Position numbers and translations under genes: made by a program. Source: Siphonodentalium dalli (lineage: Eukaryota; Mollusca; Scaphopoda; Gadilida; Siphonodentaliidae). From it: a stretch of 64,000 bases of DNA. The notes beneath the pieces were generated by a model that saw only the letters and a list, made by a program, of their open reading frames with translations, did no database searches and had not been told where the DNA came from. Positions 15,819 to 62,236 of the stretch are shown in pieces (positions within the stretch are counted from its first letter, which is position 1; each line of letters opens with the position of its first letter). The stretch covers positions 217,154,373 to 217,218,372 of the forward strand of contig CP136061.1 of NCBI GenBank assembly GCA_032622095.1. Direction: 5' to 3'.

Positions 15819-18800
15819 CTGAAAAGGATAGAAAATGGTTAAATTATTACCAAGACCATTAATATATATACACAGTGATAATGACATTACCTGCCATAAT
15901 CCTCTCGAAACAGTTACATTAACAGTCACATCTGAATTCAAATGGTATATTATACAATGGGCTATGCAGTGCATAGAGGTGGGATGGATACAAAATGACT
16001 CCCAAAAACAGCTCGAATTAGCTTAACATGTGATGTCAATTCTGGTCTATGCTGTAATATTCTACTAAGTTTTTTGTTATACAGGTCATATGTATCAACC
16101 ATGGAATAAATACTGTTTAAAGACCCGCAAGGTCTTTGTAATATATTCTGTTTGAAACAAATTGTATTGAAATTCCTACCAAATCATGAACATGAACATT
16201 GTAAAATGCCACAGCATTAAAAATCATTCCATACAATCTAGATATTCCACCAAAATGTTTGAATTAAAATCAACAAATTGTCTTGAAAACTGGATATCTT
16301 ACTTCAACATAATTGCGATGTGCGTGGTTTGCGACCTGTCATTCAATGGAGGACATGCAGTCGCAGAACTAAGGAGTCGATTCGCATAATGATGAGTGCA
16401 TTTGCAATAATGAATATAAGAACAATATTTATCTATTTCTCAATGATCTTCTTGTGATGTTTTTTACAGACTTATATATTTATTAAACATTTACCCACTG
16501 CAAGTGCCGTAGCTTCCTTCAAGTATGATTTTATTTTGTAGCTTGATAAGAGACTCACCATATTTTGACAAGCAGTGGCCATCATCATGAATTTAGGGTT
16601 GAACTGCATACACTGTATAGGTCCAGGATGGTCAGAGTTTATAATTGCTACTTTAGCTCCAGTTTCTGTGCTCCAGCAATGTATCCGACCATCAGTTGAA
16701 CCTGTGGCAACAGAGACAAGAAGTTCATTGGAGATGAATCCTCAACTTAGAGAGGGGATAATGTCATGCATTACAGTCAATGGAGCGATAAGGAATGTGG
16801 AAAGTTTAAATGTTTAAGTAATACCAGAGGTCAACCCGAAGAGCCATTTGAAAGTTGGAATCAATTGGTAAAAAATGTTGGCTGCAAGTCATGCCAAAGT
16901 AATTAGTGATGCAAAGAGTAAAATACAAGATGGATGCTGGCAGTCATGTTTTTGATCGAATACCATTCAAATTCGATAGCTCCCATCTAGAAGTGATCCT
17001 GAACATGACTGTAAATTTTCAAAACATTTCTCCAATAAAAGTTGGCTGCAGGGTGTGCTAATAGATTCAAATTTGAAAATCCAAGATGGCTGCAGACGGT
17101 CATGTTTTTTAACAACATATGAAATGAAAGTGTCAATGACACTGTAGCTCAACTTAGGTAGGGGAATAATTTAATGGTTGACAACAGATGGGCTTGCAGC
17201 CCATGCTAATGGATTTGTAGAAATATTTAGTCATACAAAGAGTAAAAACAAACTGGCCATTGGCGGCCATATTTTTTTGCCGAATGACCCCAAAATGACT
17301 CGTTCCCATCTAGGTCACCCCGATAATCAATATGAAGTTTGGTGATGATCAGATCAGGGATATGGTCTGTAGGGTGTGTCAAAGGATTTAGTGATCTTAA
17401 GAATAAAATGCAAGATGGCCTCTGGTGGCCATGTTTTTTGGCCGATTGACCCTAAAATGACTCGTTCCCATCTTCATCTCAATGTCAACATCCATGATAA
17501 TTTTTATGATCATCAGACAAACAGTACGGCCTGTAGCCCGCATCAACGGATTCAATTTGAAATCAAAGATGGCCACAAGCGGCCATGTTTTTTGGCTGAA
17601 TGACCCCCAAAATGACTCGTTCCCATCTACATGTCAATATCAACATTCATGACAGTTTCATAATGATCGGATCAGGGATGTGGTCTGTAGGGTGTGCCAA
17701 AGGGATTAGTGATGCAAGAATAAATTATAAAATGGCCACCGGCGGCCATGTTTTTTTGCCGAATGACCCCAAAATGACTTGTTCCCATCTACATTTCAAT
17801 GTCAACATCCATGACAAATTTCATGAAGATCAAACAAACAGATCGTTCTATAACACATGCTAATGGATTTTGTAGAAATATTTAGTCATACAAAGAGTAA
17901 AATCCAAAATGGCCATTGGTGGCCATATTTTTTTGCCGAATGACCCAAAAATGACTCGTTAACATCAAGAGGTCGCCCCGATGATCCATATGAAGTTTGG
18001 TGATGATCGGATCACAGATGTGGTCTGTAGGATGTGTCAAAGGATTTAGTGATGCAAAGAGTAAAATCCAAGATGGCCACCAGCGGCCATGTTTATAGGC
18101 CGATTGATCCTAAAATGACTCGTTCCCATCTACATGTAAATGTCAACATTCAGGATAAATTTTATGATGATCAGACAAACAGTACGGCCTGTAGCCAGCG
18201 CCAATGGATTCAATTTTGAAATACAAGATGGCCACCAGCGGCCATGTTTTTTGGCCGAATTACCCCAACATGATTCGTGCCCAACTAGGGGCCACCCCAA
18301 TGATGAATATCAAGTTTGGTGATGATCGTCTCAGGGTTGTGGTCTGTAGGATGTGTAAAAGTATTTAGTGATGCAAAGAGTAAAATCCAAGATGGCTGAC
18401 GGCGGCCATGTTTTTTGGCCAAATGACCCCAAAATGACTCGTCCCCATCTAGAGGTCACCCGATGACCACAAAACAAGAGGTGGCATCAGAGATGCTGTG
18501 TCTCGTTTTCGGTGGCTCACCGCCGGTGGCTACCGCCAATTGGTGTGCATCAGTATCGGTAGACTAATTAATAGGTAAAATCGAAAAATGATTAATTAAG
18601 GGCCATAACTCCATCAAATTTTATCGGGCCAGGCTGGTTTTCGAACTCGTCCGAAATATTCTTGGCAAGTATGTCTATTCCAAATTTTAAACAAATCGGG
18701 TGGACGTTTGTTGAAGTTATCGCGCTAACGAGCTAAAAATTCACGAAAAATGACTAATTAAGGGCCATAACTCTATCAAATTTTATTGGGCCAGGCTGGT

Positions 18801-21800
18801 TTTCGAACTCGTCCAGGATATTATTGGAAGACACTTATATACCAAATTTTAGTTGAATCGGATGACGTTTGTTGAAGTTATCGCGCTAACGAGCTCAAAA
18901 TTCGTACAAAATGACTACTTAAGGGCCATAACTCTATCAAATTTTATCGGACCAGGCCGGTTTTCGAACTCGTCCGTGATATTCTTGGGAGACACCTATA
19001 TACCAAATTTCAATCAAATCGGATAACGTTTGTTGAAGTTATCGTGCTAACAAGCTGAAAATTCGTGAAAAATGACTAATTAAGGGCCATAACTCTATAA
19101 AATTTTATCGGACCAGGCCGGATTTCGAAGAAAAAAAATTTAATCCGTCAATAAACGGTTGAGTTATAAGCAAAACACGTCGCCCGCCCGTCCGCCGCCC
19201 GCCTGCCCGCCTGCCCGCCGTCCCCCATCAAACTATAAGTCGAGTTTTGGAAAAAAACTCGACTAATAACTCGTTCCCATCTACATATAATTACGTGCGC
19301 TCGCGCAACAGTATGGCAATCAGTCAGATTCGTAGGTAAGTACGTTGGTGTCACCCTACCGATTCACTTATGAACTACTACCAGCTCACGGAAGAATATC
19401 TTATACTTTATATAGTAACAAACTGCCAATTGCTTAATCAAGTTATAGATTTCACCAACTGAACATTTAAAAATTCTACTTGAGTGCGTTTTGGAGCGCA
19501 TCCTTTGATCTTTTAGAAAGTTGTTGCACGAAAATACGTTGTGTATGTTGACGTTTCTAAGGACGCTGTCACTAACAACGGAAACCAGCATGGTCCGTTC
19601 TAATGATGCTCCATAACGTTGTTACGACCCAGTGACGTCACTCACGAACTGCTGGAGGTTAACTGCTCCAAGTTCTTGTAACCTTTCTTCCTTGCATATT
19701 TTAAGTTTATCTGTCTAGTAGAGGATGCTTTATCTGTCTAGTAGACTGATAGAGGCGTGGCTTATGTGATGGGCTTTATCTGTATAGTAGACAGGGGTAG
19801 GAGGTGGATAAATAGGGGTATTCCTTATTCCTTACATCATATAAATAGGGGTATTCCTTATTCCTTCCCCTTCTCTGTTTTGTTTGTTCCCATAGTGTTC
19901 CCATGGTCGGTCGGTCGCCCAATTTATTCTCGACCCAATTTCCCATTTTCCGTTAAAAGAACAGCTGAAGTCCAGACACAAGTATCACTTGGGTAGTTTT
20001 ACTATTTTAGTGTTTTATATATAGTTTCTTTAAACAAAATAGTTTAATCACCAACTAATATGCGGATTGTCATAATTATAAGCAAGCAACGTCGTTTTCG
20101 ATGCATCTGTCGGCGTATAGAAGTGTCTGATGCCAAACTACATACTAAGCGAAATTATACAGTATGTAATTCGGCATCCGACACTTCTATATGCCGACAG
20201 ATGCATCGAAAACGACGTTGATAGCATATGTAATTGTCAACATTCATGACAAATTTTATGATGATCAGACAAACAGTACGGCCTGTATTAATGATGTTCC
20301 GATAGTGAAAAAGCCAATGGATTCAAATTTGAAATCCAAGATGGCCCCATCTACATGTCAAAGTCAACATTCATGACAAATTTCATAAAGATCCGACCAA
20401 AGATACGACCTGTAGCCCGCGCGAAAGTATTTAGTGATGCAAAGAGTAAAATCCAAGATGGCTGATGGCGGCCATGTTTTTAGGCCAAATGACCCCAAAA
20501 TGACTCGTTCCCATCTAGAGGTCGCCCCGATGATCCATATGAAGTTTGGTGATGATCGGATCAGAGATGTGGTCTGTAGGATGTGTCAAATGATTTAGTG
20601 ATGCAAAGAGTAAAATCCAAGATGGCCACCAGCGGCCATGTTTTTTGGCCGAATGATCCTAAAATGACTCGTTCCCATCTACATGTAAATGTCAACATTC
20701 ATGAAAAATTTTATGAAGATTAGACAAACAGTACAGCCTGTAGCTCGCGCCAATGGATTTAATTTTGAAATCAAAGATGGCCACCAGCGGCCATGTTTTT
20801 TGGCCGAATGACCCCAATATGACTCGTTCCCATCTACATGTCAATGTCAACATTCATGACAAATTTTATAAAGATCAGACCAAAGATACGACCTGTAGCC
20901 CGCGCCAAAGGAAATTGTTGACGGACACACGGACGACGGATGCCAACCCATGGCAATAGCTCAAACTTACAAAGTAAGTTGAGCTAAAAATTGGATGGCT
21001 CCCATCTAGTGGTCATCCCGACGATTCATATTAAGTTTTGTGACAATCGGATGGCCTGTATGGTGTGCCGAAGGATTCGGCAATGCAAAGAGTAAAATCA
21101 AAGATGGCCGCTTGTAGATATGTTTTTCAATGAAATTCAGAAAAAAATTTGATGGCTTCCATCAAGTGGTCAACCAGAATGAGATGTGACCTGTAGGGTG
21201 TGCTAAAGAAAATTGTTGACGGTTGATGGACACCAAACCATGGCAATAGCTCAAACTTTAACTCAAGTTATGCTAAAGATGATCCATTAATGATGTTCCG
21301 ATAGTGAAAAAGCCAATCAGACTGATTACCGATTACTGGAGGCACAATCGGCCGATTTCCGATTCCGATGTATATTGGGCGTTTGTTCCCGTATACACCC
21401 ATTGCTGTGCGCTGCCTTTGATATATGCCAGCAATTGCTTTGACAAAGAGATTAAAGGTGCCGACTCAGAGAGGTGCTGATTCAGAGAGGTGACTACCGT
21501 GTAACCATGAGTAAAACAGGTGCATGCGGTGTAAAAGTCTTTGACTTGTGATTGAATACTTGTAAGTTGAGACCATTTATGGAATGATGGATAATAATTG
21601 CTGTCCAATAGACTTGGAGTATACTGAGCCACAGTGATAGTACGGGAGTTTTGCATGGTATCATCACGGACAGGCTGTCTGACATGTTTCAGCTATAACT
21701 TGTTTAATGTTTATAATTATAAACATATTTCCCAAAAGCCCTGATTTTGGATATTGTGCATTGCCACTCACGTTGGTCATTATTGCAGAAAGTTCTGATC

Positions 21801-24800
21801 ACAACTGTTCTAATTCATTCAGTGTGTGCTTCAAATTATTGACACAGTATATGACGTCACATGTCATGTGCTCAACAGGAAACTACAATGTAATGAGGTC
21901 TGCTGTTTACAGGTTTCTTTGAGTCTCATCATGTCCACACAATTGAACAAATAATTTATATATTACACGTCATAAGCATGTGATTGCCGTTAGGTGTATT
22001 GACATGCTTATCTATAATAACATCATACTGTTTGGACAATTCCAACTGTTACAACTGTTCTCTACAGTCAAAACATATATTTATTAAAGCATGCATATTG
22101 CGCTTAGATACAACAGATATTTTTGTTTTGGCAACCGATGTTCAACTGCGAGGTATGATTAATATCTGATGACCGATTCCAATTCAGATTATCGGAACAT
22201 ACTATGATCCAGAATTAATGTTACTGCACTATATAGATATTTATTTGACTCTGACATCCACATTAAGTCAGTAAGCCCAAGAAGATAACTTTAAAATAAC
22301 ATTGACGCAAACATCAATGAAATAAGTTGTGTCATACCAGAAAACATGGAAACTGAACTTGGTAAAAATGTAAATATTCATTCAAATGAATTAATCCTTG
22401 AGAAACATGTGATAATCACTATACCAATGAGAAGCACTGCATAGAGTTCATAACTGAAATGATTCTCTCATTCAGTTGAAAATTGGAATGGAATGGTCAA
22501 TTCCTCAATTGGATGGGTTGTTTTGAAAACAGAAATCAAATGAAGACATGTGATTCCTATCCAGTCATTTGGCACGAATGTTCAAATAATATGTGAAACA
22601 AACAGCCTACATTTGTTGAACTTATTTCCCAGGTGAACAGCAAGTATGTAGTCATCTAAGGGTTAATATATAGAGAATACCTACAGTGTTTATTTGAGAA
22701 CCAAAATATCTTATGAGTGTCTAGAAAGAAATATAAAATTTTGCCGAGTTGCTACATGCAAGCAGAGAGTGAAAATTCAATAATTCTTTCCAGACACGAA
22801 TGAGATGTTTCAGGTAGGTAGGTAGGTACTCTTTTTATTATATGCACCTTATTAATGCTCAAAGCTGCTAAATTATGCAGCATTTTCACTTTTAATAGTA
22901 CAAATTAAAGAAAATCTGATATACCCCTAATTTCAAGCCAAAATGTGGTCAAATTCTAAGTCGAAAAATGGCCATAACTCATGTAAAAATAATTAGACAG
23001 AATGTATATTCAAACTTGGTGGGTAGTTTTAGCTGGGAAATACACATACCAGCTTTGGTTCAGCTCAAATAATAAAAACTGGAGTTATCGGTCGGAAACC
23101 AAAATGTTATGAAATTGGTCAAATTTTAAGTTGAAAAAGGGCCGTAACTCATGTAAAAATAATTGGACGGAACCCATATTCGAACTTGGCCTGTATCTTT
23201 AGCTGGGAAATACACATACCAACTTTGGTTCAGATCAAATAATCCAAACTGGAGTTATCGGTCGGAAACCAAAAATATTAACCGACGGTAAAATTCTAAG
23301 TTGAAAAAGGGCCGTAACTCATGTAAAAATAATTGGACGGAACCCATATTCGAACTTGGCCTGTATCTTTAGCTGGGAAATACACATACCAACTTTGGTT
23401 CAGATCAAATAATCCAAACTGGAGTTATCGGTCGGAAACCAAAAATGTTAACAGACGGTAAAATTCTAAGTCGATAAAGGGCCGTAACTCATGTAAAAAT
23501 AATTGGACATAACCCATATTCGAACTTGGCCTGTATCTTTAGCTGGGAAATACACATAACAACTTTGGTTCAGATCAAATAATCCAAACTGGAGTTATCG
23601 ATCGGAAACCAAAAATGTTAACGGACGGACGGACGGACGGACGGACAGACGGACAGACTGATAACATAATACGACCTTTTTTCAAAAAGGGCGTATAAAA
23701 ATTGAACAATGCTATGAAAGAAACTGCCGGCAAGCTACAGTGAAATAACAAAAGCTACAAAGAAATACAAAATCAAATTTAATAGGGGTGCCACGATTAA
23801 TCGTATAATTGATGAACCGTTGATAAAGCCGATATTCGATTACCATTTCCATTGTCAGTTAATCTGCGTTATTGATATCGGATGTCAGAAAATGCCGGGT
23901 ATTATTGAATACCGTGTTTATTTTACACAGTTTAACATCCTTTGATCGCGTACCAAAGAGATTCCAATAACATGAGTACTACTGATATATGTTGGAAACA
24001 GTCGGCAGTTCATTTGATGATGCGACATGGTTTCTCGTCGGGTCATTGGATATTCTACAAATTGGCGGCACTGCAGATTTGAACACATTGCGACGTCGTT
24101 GTATATTTTAATATACTTGAAAGGTGGCACTATGTCTTTGAAATGTGCCGACTGTCACCGTGTTCAATGAACTGAATGCACTCGCCCTTGAATCTGATTG
24201 GACCAATGGGAAGTTGAAGACTGTTGATTGACATTCTCTCTAAAATCAGGGAACCAATATATATGGCATTATTTTAATCATCGATGTTCTCTGCAATGCA
24301 ATTGTGAGTGTACTTTGTTTGTACAAGTACAAATGTATACTTAGAAGTTACTAGTAAAGGCTATTGCATATCGTGTGGTGAATGCTGAATGAAACTGACT
24401 ATTATCAAATACTTAGCTTGTTCTGCGTCCTGCAATTTGCGGGTGGGGGGGGGGGGCGGGGGAGGGGGGCACACGTTTGTGATTGTTAACCACACTCTGG
24501 AAGTTTGATGAAACTTATAGTTTCCGTAACATTTGATTCCTTTCTTTAGGAACCGCCAGCGGTCCATCGTTCATTCCTACTTTTATATTGTTTGTATATG
24601 TGGCTATTCATAAAACTGAAATTAATCGCTACGTTTGTTCTAATGAACTCACAAATATTATAACCATAACATCGCCGAGAACTGTGCTGGTATTCAATAC
24701 ATTGTGCTCATTAGTCATTAACGGTGGTTTATGATGCACTTTATTAACGTAAAAATTACATCCGCCGATGCCTCAAACAACCAGCGACAGTGCAGTTATT

Positions 24801-27800: not shown

Positions 27801-30800
27801 GAGACGACATGAAAAGTGCAATCTTGTCTGGACACTGGCCCACAAAGTCAAATGACATTATGAACTGTGCCATGACGTCATCACTGGTTTTCATTAAGCT
27901 CCCCAATGAAATATGTCTAAATGAAACTAATAGGCATAGGCCTAAATCACATGGAATATTCTTCAGAAGTTGTATATTCCATCTCATTGGTCTATTGCCA
28001 ATTCCGCGCTAAAACAATCTCCATGCAGTTGCTAAACGGAAGTCACATTATAAAATTGAAAACATCCATACCCACTCTCTGAATTTTCCTTACCATATAC
28101 ACGTAGGGAAAAAAAATCACATGACGTCATTCACATGTCTGTAACATATAGACAACCAACCAATGCACGACTTGTCTTTGCTATAATAGTTTACAATTCA
28201 AGTTTGAGTTAATCGCACAAAATTCCTTCCAAATGCTTAGATTGTGTAAACATACTCCATTAAAATAGACACACACTGAGAATTAAAGAATTAATAACAA
28301 TTACGTGTTAGCCTTGTTTTGATTGTGGCAGTGTTCTCTTGGAATGTTCTAGAAATAATTGTTGACAAGTGATGTTTTGAATTAAATTCCTTAGCCTCAC
28401 TATTTGCCATTGAAGGAATTTTGAGTTTCATACATGGTCCCCTATAGGCTATACAAAGCTTCCTTTGGCTTCGCCATCAGGTGGCATCAGTTGAGAAAGA
28501 CACTATGACAAAAAGTCAATCTATGCCACCCTTAGCACACAATTCAGGCCCTACTATTAACATTCAAGTTGGAGTTGACACTGCAATGTCACTGGCTGGA
28601 GAAGTTATGAAGGAAATATGGTCTTGAGTTCGCTTTTTAAAATATTTTAAGCATACCTGAAAATATGGTGCCGAATATTTGTAGAATGATGTCCCCAGAG
28701 GGTGAATTTAGTGATGCTACCCCAGACAGTTTGGTTAATTTGATAATAAAGATACTCTCCAGAGATGAGGCCTAAGCAGAATGATGTCCCCAGAGGGTGA
28801 ATTTAGTGATGCTACCCCACACAGTGGGGTTAATTTGATAATAAAGATACTTTCCAGAGATGATGCCTAAGCGGAATGATGTCCCAGGAGGAATTTAGTG
28901 ATGTTAGCCCACTGTGCAGGGTAGCGTGACTAAATTCACCTTCTGGGAACCTCATTCTGCAAATGTCCAGCACCATATTTTCAGGTCTGGATGTTATGTC
29001 ATCGCTAGAATAGATGTAGTTTACAGACATAAGGAGGTACATTGTAAACGAACTGACAAACTTGATGAACTATTCAGGATAGAACACACCTTACAGGTGC
29101 TTTGAGAGTACTATTATGACAATTGTTGCTAAAAAAAACAATAAACAGATACATTTCTGAATATCATATTGTCTTTCAAAAGATTGATTATAATATTTCC
29201 ACTAAATTTGTGTTTTTAGTGCATAATACCTGACAATTCTGTGACCTGAGATCCCATAATCTGATGGTTTTGTCCAATGATCCTGATATGAATGTGTCAT
29301 CTATGGGTGACATACAAAGAGCAACAACTCTGGAAATAAAGTGAGACATTTTAATAGTTAATGGCTTTCAGTTCTTATGTTGTGAATCACTATCTGTAAT
29401 AGGTAATATGGGAATTCATCAATGTCGTAATACTGTCATTTAAATAGTAGCAATGACTGCTATTCCCCAAGATATTTGTAGGTCGGTTATTCCAAGATGC
29501 TGTTACCATCATGTAAATGATGCATATTTCCTGATATACTAGGACAATATTGCCATATGACAATTTCCAATTGTCATCATTGTAAGACAGATTTCTTCAC
29601 TTCTTTGAGTTAAAACATCCATAAGATATGAAATATGATTATACATAATCTTAATAAAGTGTGCACATGAAATATTAATGTAAGCTTCCGGACATATATT
29701 TGTCAGTTAAATCTGATTGACAGATCAAATATAACTAGAGGTGTGACTGTCCCAATGGGACTACGGATACCCCCCTGTTTTTAAAATACTAAGATGTTTC
29801 ACATGTCAGTAAACATTTAGTTAAAATAATAAATTAACAGTTCCCATTGCAGGTGTACAACCATAACCCTAATCTTAAACCTATTGACCGAAAAATGTAG
29901 GAATAAAAGCTTGGACAAAATTATGTATGTTGCGAAAATATTTCTGAGTCGAAAAAGGGGAATAACTCCACACAAAAAATGTCGGACAGACGTCATAATG
30001 GCAGGTGCACAGGGTCCCATGGTACTAAATAACAGTACCAAGATTAAAAAACATTGACCGAAATGTAGGAATAAAAGCTCGGACAAAATTATGCATGTTG
30101 CAAAAAATGTTTCTAAGTCGAAAAAGGAGGGTAAATCAACCAAAAAATGTCGGACAGACGTCATAATCGCAGGTGCACAAGTTCCCATGGTACTAAATAT
30201 CTGTGCCGCGTTTTAAAAAAATTGACCTAAAAATGTAGGAATAAAAGCTCGGACAAAAGTATACATGTTGCGAAAAATTTCTAAGTCGAAAAAGGGGGGA
30301 TAACTCCACCAAAAAAAGTCCGACAGACGTCATAATCGCAGGTGCACAGGTTCCCATGGTGGTTGATGTCTGTGCCAAGTTTCAACGGAAATTGATCAAA
30401 AAACGACTGAGAAAAACTCCGGACAAATTTGTGTCCACGGACGGACGGACGACGGACAGACGGACGGACAAGCTGACTTCGTTGCGGGGGGTATAAAAAC
30501 AGTGCAGTGTTGAAGAGAATACCATTATACAGAGACATGGCATCACCATTTCATCCTCACAGTTATAAACTGCTGAAAAATTGAATTGATAAATACTAGT
30601 GATGTCATCACAGATTTTACAAAGAAATTTATATAAAAGATTCTTACTTTTTAGTGTGGCCAGGAAAATATCTCAGATATTTATTGTCATGCAGAGACAG
30701 GTATCTGATAGTGTCTGAAAAGAGAAATAAATAAGATATATATATAGGAACTATTAATAACTTACGATAAATAAAAATTTAAGTTCTTATATTAAGGAAT

Positions 30801-33800
30801 GCTATCATTTCCCATGCATTAAATGAAACATCAAACGCTTGTGAGGAATACTCAAAGGACAACAAAGATTTGACAAGGATATACACAAACTTACATCATA
30901 AGTTCAAAGGTTGTGATTCTGATTGCAATTCCATTCATCTTTCTAGCACAAAGCTTTCTGTCCAGGATTTTTTTGGGGACACCTGTTTCTGTGCTGATGA
31001 TGTCCCCAAATAAATTACTACTATTGAATATTGATATTCCAAATACCACACAAATGTGGCACCTACTATCTACAAATGAACCACGAGTGCATGATTTCAC
31101 CATGAATATTAATCAACAACAGGTACAATGATATGAGGAATTCATAGTTTCAGGTTTTTATCCCCGATTTCATTTGGTCTTCAAAATTTGGGCACCCATA
31201 CCTGTTAGAGGTATACACATTTAATTGATACAATAATTATGAAAGAATTATTAATGAATTATCAAACTGAAACACTAGACTAGGCTAATATTAAAAAAGA
31301 ACATAGATAACTCCTTAACAACAGCAGATTGAAAATTAATTTGTTAAATAGCATTTTAATTTGCATTCAAGCTGATAGCAGATCTCACATGTTGAAGTAT
31401 CCAACATTAAAATTTAATTTGTGAAGTAGCCAGAGTCACATACCAGTATGAAATTTACAAACTGTTCCACTCTGTTCTATTATCCCTGGATATAACAAGA
31501 GCATCGCTAGGGGGTGGCAAAATACGCCCTTTAGCCATTTTGAATTGTACTCCCACAAAATAATATAATAATTTGAGCTTACAAAGAATATCTGATATAC
31601 CCCTAATTTCAATGCCAAAATGCGGTCAAATTCTAAGTAGTAAAATGGCCGTAATTCATATGAAAATAATTGGACAGATCCTATATTCGAACTTGGCCTG
31701 TAGTTTTAGCTGGGAAACACACAAACCAGCTTGGTTCAGATAAAAGAATCCAAACTGGAGTTATCGGACCGAAATGTTATGAAATCGGTCAAATTCTAAG
31801 TTGAAAAAGGACCATAACTCATGTAAAAATAATATGAACTTGGCCTGTACCTTTAGCCGGGAAATACACATACCAACTTTGGTTCAGATCAAATAATTCA
31901 AACTGGAGTTTGGTCGTAAACCAAAAGTGTTAACAGACGGTCAGATTCTAAGTAATAAAAAGGGCTGTAACTCATGTGAAAATAATTGGACAGAACCCAT
32001 ATACGAAATTTGCCTGTATCTTTAGCTGGGAAATGCACATACCAACTTTGGTTCAGATCAAATAATCCAAACCGGAGTTATTGGTCAGAAACCAAAAATG
32101 TTAACAGATGGTCAAATTCTAAATCGAAAAAGGGCCGTAACTCATGTAAAAATGATTGGACAGAACCCATATTAAAACTTGGCCTGTATTTTTAGCTGGG
32201 AAATACACATACCAACTTTGGTTCTGATAAAATAATCCAAACTGGAGTTATCGATCGGAAACAAAAAAAATTTAATGGACAGACGGACAGACAGACTGAT
32301 TACATAATACAACCTTTTTCAAAAGAGCGTATAAAAAGCACAGTGTTTTTAGTTTAGTTACAACATGATTTGTAATATTGACTGACAGTCATGCTCCAAT
32401 ATACAATACAGGTGGGAAATTTATCTGAAATTAAACAAGCAGTCGCAGACGGTGGTATCCCCCGTCGAATTGTGCAGTTGGGGAAGTGCATTCTCAATAA
32501 TGTTTGCTTTCTCAGTATGTGCTAAACAAGAGGTGGGATTTTGTCAAAAAGCCTGGCTTGTGAACTCATTTTAGGCACTGACATTTGTGGAAATTAGCCA
32601 TGTGACGTCGTCCATTTGCACAAAAAATAATAAACAAAGTCCAATAACTCTGCTGAATATATCCGGCCGGACCTGGCTTGCGAACTCATTCTAGATACTG
32701 GTCATGTGAACTCATATACCAAATATCTTTTAAATCTGTTGAGATTTGTGGAAATGAGCCCTGTGACGTTGTCTATTTGCTATTTGGTAAATTAGACAAA
32801 AATAATAAACAAAGTCCAATAACTCCGGTAAAAATATCCGGCCGGACCTGGCTTGCGAACTCATTTTAGGTAATGGTCACACCAGGTGAACTCATATACC
32901 AAAAAACTTTGAAATCCGTTGACATTTGTTCAAGTTATGACTCTTACAAATTCGGGACGGTACGACGGACAGACGGACGGACGGACGGAACCAATTCCAT
33001 TCATTTATGCTTATTTGGCACTCAAAAGTACATGTTATTCACAGATACAAATGACATTTTTAAATTCGAATAAGATCTTATATTATACTCACCATCAACT
33101 TTCGTTGAACAATGTAAAGCAGTATTCTGTGCATGGGTATACCGAATAAGATCAACACCATATTTCTTACTGTTTAGAGTTTTCTTAGGCCTTCAAAAGA
33201 GAAGAAAATAGGTGCTGCAAACTTTCAATTTAGATTTACAAAAACTCCATGTCATAGGTATTTAAATTTTAGTACACACATCATTTCAAATTAAAAGTTT
33301 CCAGAACATGCTGAACATATTAGGATCTTTTCTCACATTAATGACAAATTTGAACTGTTCCTCATTTAAACAGAAACTGAATTATCATCAATCAAACACA
33401 ATCGTCATTTCATTAAATATTACAGTGGGCGAAATCCGATACTCATTTTGGGATTCAAATATTTGCTGCATAATATTCTAATTTTGATCTTATGGTAATC
33501 ACTTGAAAACTCAATTTCCAAACTCATTTATTAGTAATATCCTATTATGATCAGATTTGAGGGGAGGTGGTAAAAAGAATTAATATATATGTACCTACAT
33601 GTATATGTGTATTGTGTGTACATTGTTTGATTTGGAATAAAAGGTCGCTATGCCACACATCCCTAATAAGGTGGCTTTATTTGACCGGTGGCTTTTTTTA
33701 AATGAAAAATCTAATTTTGGAAAAAATCATTGAATCAAACTTTACTTCCAGCGGTCTATGTTGTTAACATATTGATTAGATACCAGAATAATAATCGGTG

Positions 33801-42752: not shown

Positions 42753-43950
42753 TATGGGAGGCCGCTTTCATGTTTTTTAAATAATTGGACTTAAGTGCAA
42801 TCAATTGCTCTAAAAGTACAATTAATTGCACTTAAGCTCAATTAGTTGTACACAAATGAAATTCAGTTGCGCTTAAGCGCAATTCTTCTAACATTATGTG
42901 GGCAGTAATTGTGCTTAAGCGCAATTAAAATCTCTGTAATTTCAATTGCGCTTAAGCACAATTATTGATCATCATTAACAAAACCCCCTTAATTATTATA
43001 GAATAGTCTGCACGAATTGGGAAGCCATTTTCACATTTATTAAATAATTGGATTTAAGCAGCCCTGGGAATTGAGGAAAATACACCTAGGCAATATTTTT
43101 TCCTAGGCATAAGAAATCGGCCTAGGCAAAGCCAGATTTTACGTAGGAAATTTTGAAAAAAACATTGCATTTTGTAGCAATATTGCCATTTCAAATAAAT
43201 AATAACCTTACAACCCAGGTATGCTATTTTATTATGATTAGTCAGCAAAGAAATTGTAGACAATAATAAATTCTTACTAGTAGTTATCTTGGGGAACAAT
43301 GTTTCCAGGCCACTACTAAAAACATATATGTACACTTCCCCAACCATCTCCCAAAATAGTGTCCTGATAGTTTTGTAATGCCATAGTGCCATGGATGATA
43401 TAGGACAATACTTGTAAAGAAGAGTGAAAGGAAGTCAGTTTAGGAAAAGAGGTTGTATATCTGATTGACACAATGAAAATTTAGTAACCCAATGAACTTA
43501 TTTTACCTAGGCAATATTATTGCCTAGGCAAATTGATTTTACCTCTGCTTTTACCTAGGCATTGCCTATTGCCTTAGGCTAATTCACAGGGCTGTTTAAG
43601 TGCAATTAGTTGAATACAAATGTAATCCAATTGCACTTAAGTGCAATCCAATTGCACTTAAGCACAATTAAATTGTGCTTAAGAGCAATTAATTTAATAT
43701 TATGTGGGTAGCAATTGCATTGAAGCACAATTAAAAATTATGTAATTTCAATTGCGCTTAAGCGCAATTATTGATCACCATGCATAAACAAAACCCCTTA
43801 ATTCATATAGAATAGTCTGCAATTCAATTTTTTAAGCGCAATAGGGTAGAGATTTAAGTAATTGTGCTTAAGCGCAATAGAATTGCACTTAAGCATAATT
43901 GAATTGTGCTTCAGTCCAATTATTAATAAATGTGAAAATGGCCTCCCATA
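42753..43950. mobile_element. TIR element with TTAAGC-palindrome core (copy 1)
   Basis: Ends TATGGGAGGCC..TTTCA and the inverse TGTGAAAATGGCCTCCCATA, followed inward by TTAAATAATTGGACT. The inside is filled with AATTGCGCTTAAGCGCAATT-like palindromes at irregular spacing. A 536-bp element (43059-43594) interrupts it; without that insert it is about 660 bp, close to copy 2 (50559-51243, 685 bp). Confidence 0.7.
43059..43594. mobile_element. Nested DNA transposon fragment with CAGCCCTG ends
   Basis: CAGCCCTGGGAATT at the left and AATTCACAGGGCTG at the right, flanked by a 6-bp duplication TTTAAG (43053-43058 and 43595-43600). CCTAGGCAAT-type repeats lie near both ends. No transposase. Confidence 0.65.
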
Positions 43951-48600: not shown

Positions 48601-51600
48601 ACTTTTACCTCTGCCAGTAAATTCAGTTACACTTGAGGAAACATTGAAGACTACAAGATTATTATCACAAAATGGTGCCAGTATTAATCAGCTGAACTGT
48701 GTTAGGAAGAACATAGAGAGACTCAAAGGAGGTGGGCTACTAAAGATGGCTTACCCTGCACAGGTGACTGGATAATGTGATTGATAATCTTTTCTGAACA
48801 CTATACTAATCTGTAGGCTAGTTCTAGTGTATTTCATTCAGTGCAGCATCCAATGCAGTTCTGATTAAAACCATACTCAGACTCTAAAAGTACTCAGTCT
48901 GATGAAACCCGCTATCTGTCGCATTACTGTCGCTATAAATAACTTCCACAGACAACCCCCTGCAGTATGATGTCACCGCCCACATGTCTTTAAAAATAGC
49001 TTTGATTAACATAATGTAGTTTCGGTTTTGTTTCCGCAGACTCTTTATGCCAGTTCCTGGGAGAATTGATGCTACACATTCTCTCAGAATATCTTCTGCG
49101 CCTTGTGATATAATTTTAACTGAGATTAATCACGTTTAACAAACTTTAAATGCGTTTATGACTCGAAACAAAATAATATTTTCTTTGTTTAATTTCGAAG
49201 TTAACATCATATGCCGGAAATTAAATCAATTTACAACAACGCGACTTCTAAATTATTCGGTACTAAATGTTGAATTTCTTATAACATTCACTTATATTAC
49301 ATATTAAAGTGATGTGAAACGTAAATTGAACCTCACAATTGAGTTCCCTGCGTCATTCTGTGGGAAGAGTGAATAAAATAACTCAGATACACGAAATCCC
49401 CCATCCTGAAGTCAGTTTGTACACATTATACGGCCATTCGGCTAACTATTTATATTTCATCAATCGTCCCGATTAATCTCGCCATAATACCACGAAAAAA
49501 CAAACCGAATCGTTGTCTTGTGCAGTCACGGAAATGCCCGAGCACTTCCGACTCGATTGGGATTGAATCGGGTTTCGTTCTCACTTCTCAGAAATGGCTT
49601 CTAGGGAGGATGACCGTTCGCTGGAATAGCGTCACATCAGAATATTAAAGCGAAAAACTAATTGACATCGCAATCGGGTAGTCGATTCGACAGGGAAGGA
49701 ATAGAAAGGGAATTGTTGCGTGAAATCACAAACGGAAGAACATTGGCCGAGTTAGTGGCAAAGATTATAATCGAACAGTGATCGAGAGGTAATAATTCCA
49801 AAATGTTACTATTTATAGAAAATTGTAAGCGCATTGACCGAATTTTTACATCAATCTGGCCGCAAGCACAGTACCGTGCAGAAAGAGTTGTCTTACTTTT
49901 ATAACTCAAAATTGTTTAATTACATTATACCTGTACAATAGTACAATAATTGGTATTCAATATGCCAATACTGCATGACCATTTGTTAGCTCATTGGCCA
50001 TGAAATATTTTTAAGGGCAAATTCTGTTGTCAAGCTTTAGTCAGCACTATTCATTCTGATAGATGATAACTATAATGGAAGGCCTTTTTCACATGTATTA
50101 GCTAATTGCACTTTAGCGTAAGTGAATTACACGTAAGCGTAATGTATTACACTCAGCCTCAGGTGTAATGCACACATATAAAGCGTAATTCACTAACGCT
50201 TAACCGTATGATGTAGATAAAGAATTACTCCTATGAGTAATAGAATTATGACTAGTGTGCTTAAGCGTAATTGATTTAAGTGTGCTTAAGCGTAATTGAT
50301 TTACGCTTAAGCGTAATTGATTTACGCTTAAGCATAATTGATTTACGCTTAAGCTCACTGGTCATTCATTTTCATTGATAGATTAATTACACTTAATCGT
50401 AAATGAATTATGCTTAAGCGATTATACGAGAAGCCGTTTTCACATTTATTCTGATTCTGCTTAATCGCAAATCATTTACGCTTAAGTGTAAATCATTTGC
50501 ACTTAAGAGCAAATCATTTATACTTAAATCCAAATCATATGTGCATTAGCGGAAATAGTTTGGGAGGCCTTTTTCACATTTATTATTTATTTGCGCTTAA
50601 GCGCAAATATTTGTGCTTAAGCGTAAATCATTTGCGCTTAAGTGCAAATATGTGTCTATCAATTTATTTGCGCTTAAGCGCAAATACCTAACACTCCCTT
50701 ACATCCCTCTGATGTGAATGATTGAGTCCATCTCATATTATATTATCATGGGCCCATATATATAGTACAGACTGGAAAGTTGAAAAAAGAAATCCATATG
50801 CATATCTGGTTACTGGGGTTTGCTTCCCTCATATGGTGTGCTCATTGACCTGAAGTAGGCAAAAACCCCTATTTTCATAATATCAGCATCCCTGTCCCCA
50901 AGAATTTGTGTCTCCATCCCAGAGATATAGTATATTTTATAAAAGAGACATATCCTACACAGATCTATATCATTTCCATTCCATGGTCATAAAACAGATC
51001 TTGGGGTTTCTGGGGGATTGTTTCCTTCATATGGTGGGGCTATATCAACTTTAGTGATGTGTTTAGGCCTGTGCCATGTAAAATTAATTCAGGGGGGATC
51101 AATGCATATTGATTTTTATTTGCGCTTAAGTGCAAATGATTTGCGCTTAAGCGAAAATATGATCTATTTGCTTAAGCGCAAATGATAGAGGTTATTTGCG
51201 CTTAAGCGTAAATAAATAATAAATGTGAAAAGGGCCTCCCATAAAATAGATCACATTTATGGCAATTTTATGCTAAAGCGCAAATATATTATTAAACACA
51301 TATTTTTTGCGCTTCAGCGCAATTGAATTTTACAATAATAAATAATATATTTGAAAAGGCTGTCTCCCATGCGATTCCCTCTAAACTCAAATTTACTCTG
51401 GCAATAAGACATCAATCAAACATCGGTTTAGACTCCCCCATATACTATGAGATGGACTCAATTATTCAGACAGAGGAAATCAGTTGGAGTTCAAATAGGT
51501 ATTTGCTTAAGCATTATTCATTTTAATTATGCTTAAGTGTAAATGAGTTCCGCGCTTAAGCATAAATGAAGTACGCTTAAACGTAATTCATATACACTCT

Positions 51601-54600
51601 CATTGAACTCCCCTCACGCTGAAATGGATGCAACCGCATTACTAATGCCAGTAACCTACATCAGGTTATACCAATATACATGAGGTATATGGGGAGCCAA
51701 GCGATATAATTGAGCTTAAGTGATATAATAAGGGAAGAGATAATTGCGATTAAGTTCAATAAGGAAATATCTAATTGCGCTTAGCAAAATAAGGAATATC
51801 TTATTGCACTTAAGCACAAAAAGGAATATCATATTGCACTTAAGCGCAATAAGGAATCTCTAAGCGCAATAAGGAATATTCTTATTGCGCTTAAGCGCGA
51901 TAAGAAATATTCTTATTGCACTTAAGTGTAATTAGAGATTCCTTGATTGGGGGGGGGGGCTTTAGCTCAATTATTTATTAAATGTTAATTTGGCTTCCTC
52001 CCATAGAGGTGAGATAGCTGATGAACCCAATTACACTTAAGCGTAATTCAAATGTATTACGCTTATCGTAAGTTGATTATGCTTAAGCGTAAATAATTTA
52101 CGCTTAAGTGTAATTAGCTACTATAAAGTGAATCTGGGATAAGGGAGTACTCTAAATTGTTCTTTCGACCAGCTGTTTCTACCAATTAAAAAGAATTCTC
52201 ATTTATTTTGAAACTAATGAAAGACAACGGTATAATTTTTAACTGGTAATATTCATTATAAACTTGTACAAATCTGAAAACAAACAAAATTTTAATATTT
52301 AAGAAATTTAGAGTTCCCTCTCTTACAGCAGCGACCACTATGCCAGGAAGACCAATCGATCTAGTTCAGCCCGATTGGGCTATTATAATAATTTATAGAT
52401 CGATCGGTGGTTCACTTTCTGCATTTCAAATATTGCTAATAATTTCCATTTACAGAAGTCAATAATGCCATTGCAGATAACTTCATCTTAAATTCGACCA
52501 AATATGTTGACGTTTGATAAGAAACGCAGGAATTCCCCGATTTGTTTATTTTCAATCGATGAGAAGCATGACCACCTGGATCAGTTGGGAGGTGTGCCAA
52601 TCGTATTTTGCATGCTGTGAATACCCATTCACGCATAAATTTGCAAACAATCCATATATAACATATACACAGTGTGTACACTTTGTTAGTTGCCAATTAA
52701 TTCTCGATATTTCAATTAGAAAACATGAGATATCGATGCAAAAATCAAGACATTATCTAGTTTGTGTTTTGTTGAATCTACTTTCGGTTATCGACATGCC
52801 GGCTATTGTTTTGGCTGTTCTGTCAACCGTGCGTGCCAGCCGATCGTCGTTTTTCGGGCGGTTCCGATTTCTTCTGAATATAATTCCATGACCTCCACGC
52901 GATGATTCGCGCCGAAAATGTGGTTGTATCTGAGAAGATTTCTTACTCTGACCGCAGTTTTCAACAATTTAATACGGGGCGAATACCGCATCAATAATAT
53001 TCAACCTTGGGATTTTATTTCTAGTTTTTTATGACCTTTCTTATGGTATATCGGATACAGTTCTGCCTGACATGAAATATATACCCACCGGGAGTGAAGC
53101 TAATGACTTTAAGTAAAATTGGTCAATTCTGCACTCTTTAAATACGCTTTTCAATGTTAAATTTGCTATCGTAAAACTCTGAATTTGTAAACATTAGCCA
53201 TGCGGCGGAAAAGTTATTGTGCTATTTATAACTATTGGGAGGGGTTTACTGGAATCGGCACCGGCTGAAGGAATTCCCCTAGTCTTGGGAATTCCATGCG
53301 ACTATCGCCTGATTGGTTACCTCGCATTCTTGAGGATATTGTGATTGGCTGGCAATTACGTAATTCCTGCTGGGAGTAATGGAACCTCTACTCATTGTCA
53401 TCAGACTCAGTACTTTTAGAGTCTGAGTATGGTTTTAATCAGAACTGCATCCAATGACTGAACTTCACGCTACTGATTTAACTGGTGCAATGGCGAATTC
53501 CCCGCATATTCATTAGTGGGAGGTTATGGTTTTCTAGGAGACAAGGCTCTGCAGAAATAGTTTTATTAGTTTTACAGCACCTGCCTATATGCTATAATGG
53601 ACCAGAGAATATAATAATAGACAACAGAAAATTGTTTTAAAATAGGCAATTTAGCACTGAAAGTATGCAAGGATATCAAAATTAGGGTGAACAAAAAATG
53701 CTCATGCAGAAAGCGACCAGCTCGGTCACTCGATTTTAGAAAACACTTGCTAATAATTATTTGATTGACATATGTAGAAAGGTCCATTGGTAGTGCGTGT
53801 TTGTGTACCACCAATGATGGGATTGGTGCTCCATCTTTGTTTGAAGTGAACTGACTGGGAAGTAACTAATCTAGGAGGCATGAATATTATTTATTGTCTG
53901 TCAAACAGAAATGAAAGGCTACTTGGTTTCTCCATCAAAAAGGATGGCAAACATCTTGAGGTATTAGCTCTTTTTGACATTGCAACTCACAAGAGGCTGT
54001 GCTTACATATCTGGGAAAACACAAGAGGCTGTGCTTACATATCTGGGAAAACATTTCACTTTCATGAGCCACCATTCAGAAATGTGGCAGTTATGTTCAC
54101 CAGAAAGAATCTTTTAGTAAAGCCCATATTTATGGTTTTATTGCCACGGAACTTCACAAGCTTGTTGGAGCAATCAAACTGTTTAAACTATCCAAATGTG
54201 TGCAAAGCGCACATAGCGGGCCATAGGTCCCTAACGCATAAAGGGGCCGAAGGGAGCCTGTTTCAGCTAGTTTTTAATAATTTGATCGCAAACCTTATAG
54301 TACAGTGCCTTGCTAATGTTAACTTGAGCTTCAGTGTGCATGATTGACACTTTTTTTTTTTTTAATGTTGTAATGGTTTATTCTCAGACACATCCATGAG
54401 TAACAAATATACAAGGATGTGTGCACTGTGCACATATACAATAATTCATCGAAACGTACATGTAAGTATATATGTGTCAATATAAGGCAACATCATTTCA
54501 ACTTAAAGGGGTACTGTACGCCATTTTCAATAAATTTCCAGTGATAACAACGATCTAATATCAATAATATATAGAAACATAAGTAATTTGAGTCGAAGAT

Positions 54601-60361: not shown

Positions 60362-62236
60362 TGAAAGTGTCAATGACACTGTAGCTTAACTTGGAAAGGG
60401 AATAATTTAATGTATTACAATCAATGGAGCGATTAGGAATGTGGAAAGTTGAATGTCTAATACTAGTTTATCGACATGAAGATATATATAAAATCTAAGA
60501 TGGTTGCTGGCGGCTATGTTTTTCAATAAAATTCAAAAGCATTTGATAGCTTTAGTCATGCAAATAGTAAAATGCAAGATGGCTACCAGCAACCATGTTT
60601 TTTGGCCAAATAACCCCAAAATGACTCGTTCCCATCTACATTCCAATTTCAACAGCCATGACAAATTTTATGATGATCAGACTAAAGGTACGACATGTAG
60701 CCCGTGCTAAAGGATTTAGTCATACAAAGAGTAAAATCCAAGATGGCTGCTGGCGGCCATGTTTTTGGCCGAATGACCCCAAAATGACTCGTTCCCATCT
60801 ACATGTCATTATTAACATTCATGACAAATTTTACGATGATCAGACTAAAGGTACGACCTGTAGCCCGTGCTAAAGGATTTAGTCATACAAAGAGTAAAAT
60901 CCAAGATGGCTGCTGGTGGCCATGTTTTTCGGCCGAATGACCCCAAAATGAATCGTTCCCATCTACATGTCAATATTAACATCCATGACAAATTTCATGA
61001 TGATCAGACTAAAGGTACGACCTGTGGCCCGTGCTAATGGATTAATTTTTGAAATCCAAGATGGCCACTGACGGCCATATTTTTTGTCCGAATGACCCCA
61101 AAATGACTCGTTCCCATCTACATGTCATTATTAACATTCATGACAAATTTTATGATGATCAGACTAAAGGTACGACCTGTAGCCCGTGCTAAAGGATTTA
61201 GTCATACAAAGAGTAAAATCCAAGATGGCTGCTGGCGGCCATGTTTTTCGGGCGATTGACCCCAAAATGAGTCGTTCCCATCTACATGTCATTGTTAACA
61301 TCCATGACAAATTTTATGATGATCAGACTAAAGGTACGACCTGTAGCCCGTGCTAAAGAATTTAGTCATACAAAGAGTAAAATCCAAGATGGCTGCTGGC
61401 GGCCATGTTTTTTGACCGAATGGCCCCAAAATTACTCGTTCCCATCTACATGTCAATATTATCATCCATGACAAATTTCATGATGATCAGACGAACAGTA
61501 CGACCTGTGGCCAGTGCTAATGGATTCAATTTTGAAATCCAAAATGGCCACTGGTGGCCATGTTTTTCGTCCGAATGACCCCAAAATGACTCGTTCCCAT
61601 CTACATTCCAATTTCAACAGCCATGACAAATTTTATGATGATCAGACCAAAGGTATGACCTGTAGCCCGTGCTAAAGATTTAGTCATACAAAGAGTAAAA
61701 TCCAAGATGGCTGCTGGTGGCCATGTTTTTTGGCCGAATGACCCCAAAATGACTCGTTCCCATCTACATGTCATTATTAACATTCATGACAAATTTTATG
61801 ATGATCAGACTAAAAGTACGACCTGTAGCCCGTGCTAAAGAATTTATTCATACAAAGAGTAAAATTCAAGATGGCTGCTGGCGGCCATGTTTTTGGGCCG
61901 AATGACCCCAAAATGACTCGTTCCCTTCTACATGTCAATATTAACATCCATGACAAATTTCATGACGATCAGACAAACAATACAGCCTGTAGCCCGTGCT
62001 AATGGATTGAATTTTGAAATCCAAGATGGCCACTGACGGCCATGTTTTTTTTCCGAATGAGCCCAAAATAATCATTCTGGTCTAAATGTTGATGTCAACA
62101 GCTATGACAAATTTCATAATGATCCGACCAAAGGTACGACCTGTAGCCTGTATTGTTGACGCCTTACGTACACACGCACACACGGACGACAAAGCCATGG
62201 CAATAGCTCAAACTTTACAAAGTAAAGTTGAGCTAA
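60362..62236. mobile_element. Complete Helitron-like non-autonomous element (HINE), 1875 bp
   Basis: 5' end TGAAAGTGTCAATGACACTG with a GTGTCA/TGACAC palindrome and TAGCTTAACTT. 3' end: ACACACGGACGAC tract, hairpin CTCAAACTTTAC/GTAAAGTTGAG, and GAGCTAA. The pieces AGCTTAACTT and AAGTTGAGCT are terminal inverted repeats. The core is ten or so 155-164-bp units. Inserted between A and T with no duplication, as the restored host element shows. No Rep/helicase coding, so mobilised in trans if at all. Confidence 0.8.
60738..62183. repeat. Higher-order tandem repeat, trimer A-A-B x3, period 482
   Basis: The marker CCAAGATGG (or close variant) starts at 60738, 60901, 61056, 61220, 61384, 61539, 61702, 61865 and 62021. 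The steps are 163, 155, 164, 164, 155, 163, 163, 156. Long units (A) carry GATTTAGTCATACAAAGAGT before the marker; short units (B) carry AATGGATT.AATTTTGAAATC and GGCCACTG after it. Confidence 0.8.

Follow-up and report, generated by a model that had tools for sequence, protein, structure and literature searches.

Complete IS3EU families of DNA transposons always have TA..TA termini and usually show 6-bp target site duplications (TSDs), IS3EU and GingerRoot form one lineage (PMC10045372), and TAYGG..CCRTA termini occur in a set of rust-fungus IS3EU elements (PMC12730594). In the literature searched, available in part, element-specific palindrome arrays near both ends were not found described for IS3EU or GingerRoot, and a search with the exact sequence gave papers that, judged by title and start of abstract, deal with other subjects. 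Such arrays are the subject of our analysis of a 64,000-nucleotide stretch of the scaphopod mollusc Siphonodentalium dalli (assembly GCA_032622095.1, contig CP136061.1, positions 217,154,373 to 217,218,372 of the forward strand), the whole of which is called the window below, and in which CTTAAG-centred palindromes form arrays. These CTTAAG arrays lie subterminally in non-autonomous DNA transposons, namely miniature inverted-repeat transposable elements (MITEs). With a probability of roughly 0.75, we consider that the MITEs are of the IS3EU/GingerRoot kind and that the palindrome would be read by a dimer of an integrase-like transposase.

Several other systems offer points of comparison. In CACTA (En/Spm), Ac/Ds and Tol2 elements the transposase binds numerous short sites close to each end, but these are not known to be perfect 12-20 bp palindromes, and TSD and transposase differ. 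piggyBac has a TTAA duplication. The satellite-carrying Helentrons of bivalves are of the rolling-circle type, and their arrays are not known to be fixed beside terminal inverted repeats (TIRs). Satellite-carrying MITEs and Helentrons of bivalves share with the present elements the presence of short tandem arrays in high-copy non-autonomous elements (PMC7492417), and a table in PMC8268682 relates two oyster satellites, with monomers of 690 and 129 bp, to IS3EU. In piggyBac and piggyBat, too, the subterminal sites are palindromic; each monomer of the transposase dimer binds them with a cysteine-rich domain at its C terminus, and piggyBat subterminal sequences inhibit activity (PMC11707139). They differ in having few sites per end (three at the piggyBat left end), against 4 to about 40 here, in their unrelated transposase and palindromes, and in that the TSD here is of 6 bp. 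The piggyBac dimer gripping a subterminal palindrome is the best structural analogue of the arrangement proposed here.

The recurrence of the palindrome, described in an earlier note on this DNA, is borne out by the counts. The window contains 21 exact copies of GCTTAAGC, which fall only within 42871-43873 (5) and 50259-52088 (16), a number reached in none of 100 dinucleotide shuffles (mean 0.41). The 16-bp motif TTRYRCTTAAGYRYAA has 24 perfect matches, whereas each of four permuted-core controls has 0; with up to 3 mismatches it gives 59 hits, 50 of them inside the two array regions, although this loose count is non-discriminating, with 59, 51, 19 and 12 hits for the controls. The genome-wide count that the note had called for is 55,278 GCTTAAGC per strand in the 2.23-Gb genome; the reversed string, whose CpG makes it an imperfect control, gives 23,025. 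The sites are clustered: 62 of 72 (the first distinct ones listed, at the start of chromosome C1, where the genome pattern listings begin) have a neighbour within 500 bp, compared with about 2.5% expected.

The description of the motif as lacking a fixed period was too strong. Tandem Repeats Finder gives a period of 20-21 in most blocks and of 30-31 in the block built on AAGGAATAT, and 115 of 303 distinct neighbouring palindrome pairs no more than 130 bp apart in the sequence analysed are spaced by 20-21 bp and 35 by 30-31 bp, with further recurrent spacings of 25, 36, 46, 60, 68 and 72-73 bp. A decayed regular long unit, which the note had named as the finding that would speak against it, is borne out in part: there is a regular unit, but this unit is short (20-21 or 30-31 bp) and occurs in several families. 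The block-specific spellings, or dialects, are real, yet they are a property of different nested elements and not of one array: the dialects are different element families nested one inside another (Table 1). Across 311 distinct units the CTTAAG bases are each 91-98% conserved. Conservation is 73-77% for the flanking CpG bases, where most changes are transitions, and 65-67% for the next base outward.

Self-comparison reveals inverted termini GGGAGGCC.TTTTCACATTTATTA that enclose the blocks. The 25-bp TIR, with up to 2 mismatches, has 2,666 and 2,636 genomic sites against 0 for the reversed control, and the pairing of termini gives the full element ends of families A and B as TATGGGAGGCC...GGCCTCCCATA. 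Outside such ends lie 6-bp direct repeats, namely TGTCTC, CATAAA, AGCAAC, AGGATA, ATTGTC and AAATTG, as well as AAATAG/CTATTT in the composite of nested elements described below. Flanks match at 5-6 of 6 positions in 11 of 28 TIR-like pairs, a set that includes wrong pairings and in which 4 of the 11 are copies of that one composite, compared with a shuffled expectation of about 1.1. An empty site, met by chance and not by directed search, confirms the element boundaries: when the element in locus L058 is removed together with one copy of its TSD, the joined flanks match, at 96% over 248 columns, the paralogous locus L090, which has a single TGTCTC and no gap at the junction. A search for the empty-site pattern of the composite gave 0 hits, and a flank search within the loci read gave paralogous hits only, among the matches listed. 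Elements without evident nested inserts measure 520-975 bp, have TIRs and TSDs, are represented by about 5,300 TIRs and were judged non-coding by inspection of their reading frames by eye, all of which agrees with MITEs. Candidates for larger elements (3.6 kb in L035 and L036, 2.1 kb in L055) were rejected on sequence and alignments as MITEs carrying other inserts.

These boundaries also bear on the spread of free-standing arrays by hairpin-primed copying, the alternative offered in the earlier note. As 20-bp palindromes can fold back, and PMC8268682 cites a stem-loop model for repeats that derive from MITEs, such a process is conceivable; it is nonetheless extremely improbable for arrays that have TIRs and 6-bp TSDs as their boundaries, with an empty site, that cluster at 62 of the 72 listed sites, and whose length changes are mostly direct-repeat steps, so that the mechanism need not be invoked.

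The TAT..ATA ends together with the 6-bp duplications point to IS3EU. Termini of the expected type are TATGGGAGGCC..GGCCTCCCATA for families A and B and TATGGGGAGCC/TATGGGAAACC for family C, with degraded versions in element D and in the second-level element inside it, and the expected TSDs are found in the 11 of 28 pairs and at the empty site. The MITEs may be assigned to IS3EU on the basis of ends and TSD, as TA..TA (TAYGG..CCRTA) termini and 6-bp TSDs are shared with IS3EU and GingerRoot. The transposase-bearing relatives found here have, as IS3EU and GingerRoot do, an integrase-like DDE transposase (PMC10045372, PMC12730594). Among other superfamilies, Tc1/mariner/pogo was rejected on the 6-bp duplication and empty site found in place of a 2-bp TA duplication, piggyBac on 6-bp TSDs of varied sequence in place of TTAA, and PHIS (Harbinger/ISL2EU) on a TSD outside its 0-4 bp and, in place of a DDE_Tnp_4 transposase with matching ends, on 0 of 12 PF13359 loci (of 150 listed) with GCTTAAGC or the TIR pair. 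In all, 32 loci of PF13359 (12 of 150), PF13358 (10 of 90) and PF03184 (10 of 150) were read from 390 listed matches, and none had GCTTAAGC or a TIR pair with arrays. A lone occurrence of two TATGGGAGGCC in a 55-bp tandem repeat lies beside a pogo-like gene in L060, but by eye the ends of that gene's transposon differ. A different superfamily whose ends are alike (Tc1/mariner with TA, PHIS with AT, or pogo) could be suspected as the source of the MITEs from flanks that are almost always TAT..ATA and at first resemble a TA duplication; given the 6-bp TSDs and empty site, the sample of 32 loci free of GCTTAAGC and the L060 repeat that is not at its neighbour's transposon ends, we regard it as very unlikely.

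The position of the palindromes relative to the ends is close to constant. All 10 family-A copies measured (L004, L010, L011, L016, L018, L055, L056 twice, L058 and the window, the last at 40 and 40 bp) have the centre of their first palindrome at 39-41 bp, counted from either end; L004, L016, L018 and the window copy share one composite, so these represent seven independent copies. Family-A palindromes fall within 250 bp of an end in 77 of 81 cases, and the other 4 (L055, L058) adjoin nested inserts. The same 39-41 bp is found at 5 of 5 ends measured in family B, including copy 1 of the window. Family A dominates the sample because its terminus and the window family-A copy were the queries. 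The suggestion of a protein-binding array is the better half of the guess made in the earlier note, but the arrays are parts of transposons, as they sit just inside TAT...ATA ends with 6-bp duplications and as relatives in this genome that bear a transposase show a similar layout.

These relatives were recognized with the Pfam model rva_4 (PF24764, integrase core), which we took to represent IS3EU. It has 126 matches in the genome, of which nine loci, chosen from the listings and not at random, were read and compared with the 32 control loci above. An array with a period of 20-23 bp and more than 5 copies stands beside the transposase at 7 of the 9 rva_4 loci and at 0 of 32 controls (Fisher 1.6e-6), under a criterion set after seeing the data and with L080 counted from a 43-bp double; 4 of the 32 controls have arrays of other periods (13, 33, 43-49 and 56). 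Perfect palindromes are repeated at three of the loci (CTGATATATCAG 34 times, TCGTGGCCACGA 41 times, GCGTTTAAACGC 27 times), whereas the highest count of a single palindrome at any control locus is 3, and the L086 array contains an odd palindrome, CTCCCNGGGAG, in 22 and 10 units on its two sides (at most 1 mismatch), so that 4 of the 7 arrays are palindromic, each with different letters. Ends of the TAYGG type occur at the outer array edge in L080, L082, L083, L084, L085 and L086, and in L080, L082 and L083, whose own palindromes are CCTGATATATCAGG, TCGTGGCCACGA and GCGTTTAAACGC, all different, the first centre lies 47.0 bp from the end. L086 together with L088 forms a complete rva_4 element of 3,069 bp, with arrays on both sides, the TIR TACGGAAGCCTATTAGGGCC at both ends and flanks AGAACA/ATAACA. 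Two palindromes other than CTTAAG, GGCGTTTAAACGCC and CCTGATATATCAGG, occur 1,293 and 3,921 times in the genome against 1 and 5 times when reversed, and among the listed C1 places they form three pairs of blocks about 3.3 kb apart and two pairs about 1.8 kb apart, respectively, the others being unpaired. Pfam returns only rva_4 and weak rve matches for the rva_4 proteins, and in an alignment of seven of them three core residues, D, D and E, are invariant; we read these as a putative catalytic triad. Arrays of 20-23 bp in which palindromes are unclear lie at L085:84-651, L087:2977-3301 and L084:914-1016.

It can be asked whether such arrays are passengers. Under this explanation the elements would still be IS3EU-like MITEs, with minisatellites grown by slippage and without a role in transposition. 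The arrays of D and family A differ between near-identical copies of the composite mostly by 20-, 21- and 42-bp steps (34 and 35 once each), and the family-C array changes in length by 22-86 bp, in a comparison that excludes L035 (77% alignment) and in which L018-L020 align badly at the left end, with an insert or a missing part. The arrays therefore gain and lose mostly whole units of about 21 bp, as ordinary tandem arrays do, and this variation in unit number among copies is what passenger minisatellites would show; moreover, animals are known to have tandem repeats that derive from MITEs or are carried by transposons (PMC8268682, PMC7492417). A passenger origin nevertheless seems unlikely when arrays are present in several MITE families and beside most of the rva_4 transposases read but not beside those of three other superfamilies, when the first unit keeps a near-constant offset in family A, in family B and in three of the rva_4 elements, and when the motif is palindromic in the MITEs and at four rva_4 loci despite differing letters.

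A host factor, for example of the homeodomain type or a chromatin protein, could instead bind the palindromes and drive or silence the elements. A symmetric multi-copy site would suit any dimeric DNA-binding protein, and in L080, L082, L083, L084 and L085 the array adjoins the 5' end of the transposase open reading frame, where a promoter would be placed. However, the four different palindromes at four transposase loci could not be read by a single factor, the complete element is flanked by arrays on both sides, and the two palindromes in paired blocks about 3.3 kb (three pairs) or 1.8 kb (two pairs) apart among the listed C1 places fit this explanation poorly, which makes it quite improbable. 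The palindromes are most likely transposase-binding sites.

If transposase is indeed the reader, a region outside its catalytic core would bind DNA and let a dimer recognize the palindrome specific to the element. The tip of the TIR would be the cleavage site, and the first palindrome, 40 or 47 bp in, would set the active geometry, with further units loading additional transposase. MITEs could then be mobilized in trans for as long as tip and palindromes persist, and array length may change by unit slippage or unequal exchange and array spelling by CpG decay and family divergence. By analogy to piggyBac and piggyBat, the inner units could activate or restrain transposition. Tentatively, and with somewhat less assurance than an even bet would call for, a modular code might be envisaged for the IS3EU-like transposons of this genome, in which a constant TAYGG tip is combined with a family-specific palindrome array 40 or 47 bp inside each end, the letters being replaced wholesale while symmetry, the 20-23 bp period and the offset are kept, so that the DNA-binding domain co-diverges and each family moves its own MITEs only.

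A number of results weigh against recognition by an IS3EU-like transposase. Although rva_4 elements with TAYGG ends exist, CTTAAG palindromes occur in 0 of the 9 read and GCTTAAGC is absent from all nine (of 126 matches), so that the CTTAAG partner was not found. No array is present in the stretch read at 2 of the 9 (L079, L081), and the arrays at 3 of 9 (L084, L085, L087) lack clear palindromes and may be either decayed or of a different reading mode. When only perfect palindromes are compared, the contrast falls to 3 of 9 against 0 of 32 (Fisher 0.008, or 0.001 with L086). The complete rva_4 element is an exception to the offset, with its first clear palindrome about 150-165 bp in and not at 47, and in family C the offset varies (30, 40 and 64 bp). 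What links rva_4 to IS3EU, in an assignment itself putative, is the termini, a single imperfect TSD and a core resembling that of integrases; N-terminal to that core only weak, below-cut-off helix-turn-helix Pfam hits are found, so that the DNA-binding part of the transposase would be a guess, and a PDB search with the rva_4 alignment returned no credible solved structure. A clear 6-bp TSD is absent at window copy 1, L011, L040 and L008. Helical phasing of the spacings, considered as proof of protein binding, was rejected, as the signal vanishes once the 19-22 bp class is removed.

Recognition of the palindrome by transposase within MITEs would explain its 55,278 occurrences in a 2.2-Gb genome and would supply a transposon superfamily that has received little study with an architecture that implies a mechanism. 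With several transposase families in one genome, each with its own visible palindrome, both the protein-DNA recognition code and the degree to which the systems are independent of each other become directly testable, and a possible use would be as orthogonal transposon tools.

Table 1. Nested elements and palindrome arrays in the window (positions of the window; "." indicates no strand)
Feature	Position	Strand	Description
Copy 1, family-B-like element(s)	42753..43950	.	Termini TATGGGAGGCC..GGCCTCCCATA, AATTG dialect; from TIR and self-BLAST
Unrelated MITE inside copy 1	43059..43594	.	TIR CAGCCCTG..CAGGGCTG; 6 CCTAGG palindromes
Outer degraded element D	50073..52140 (right end approximate)	.	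ATTACG dialect; left TIR-like TAATGGAAGGCC
Second-level element inside D	50425..51371	.	Degraded TIRs TACGAGAAGCC / CTGTCTCCCATG; flanks CGATTA / CGATTC (5/6)
Family-A element inside second-level element	50559..51243	.	685 bp; ATTTG dialect; perfect 6-bp TSD AAATAG
Family-A left subterminal palindrome array	50591..50683	.	4 units
Family-A right subterminal palindrome array	51120..51211	.	4 units
Family-C element in right part of D	51688..52005	.	318 bp; termini TATGGGGAGCC..GGCTTCCTCCCATA

Copy 1 has flanks GTTCGC / TCAGGA, with its first palindromes 40 and 39 bp from its ends, and contains an internal partial duplication (42791-43012 and 43596-43821); this brings in another TIR, in degraded form, at about 43018. 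Its middle part, the region of the inner MITE, matches other genomic copies (L026-L034); this MITE, with window flanks GATTTAAG / TTTAAGTG, represents a second palindrome-rich family of another kind. Element D has its first palindrome 41 bp from the left end and an inverted match between 50096-50143 and 52076-52123. The family-A element within it (also L015:1500-2184) has inverted arms of 49 nt at 96%, and the family-C element, with a dialect of TATTG plus AAGGAATAT at a period of 30-31 bp, is flanked by GAGGTA / GAGGTG (5/6).

The composite of nested elements is copied elsewhere. Its right part, from 50808 onward, is common at 94-99% to 9 of 9 other fetched loci, the best of 40 scored candidates, and the left parts of the copies are less alike or interrupted. 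At C1:63658200-63666700 (L057), C4:165.53 Mb and C1:207.10 Mb the composite repeats at about 3.75-4.9 kb, so that in part it seems to have spread as some larger unit duplicated in tandem and not by transposition. Another amplified composite has two or more family-A elements at constant spacing (L056:300-2001), with divergent TIRs 296 bp apart at four C1 sites.

Other inserts are also seen. Three TTAA-target elements, with TIRs CACGTTGAGTGCC, CCCTTTACCC and AGGTACTCAACCCG, lie inside CTTAAG palindromes (L036:323-3266, L058:269-547, L018:2564-3044, L008:773-1247); as each CTTAAG unit offers a TTAA, the arrays can serve other transposons as landing sites. An insert at L035:1020-3850 within a family-A element has, by eye, Helitron-like ends of the form TC...CTAGT, which we take to be a Helitron end signature. 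Elsewhere in the window, repeats of about 155-170 bp form arrays at 17225-23622, 29883-32268 and 60551-62148, some with AAGATGGCC..GGCCATG cores, and one of these arrays has higher-order periods of 319/482 bp.

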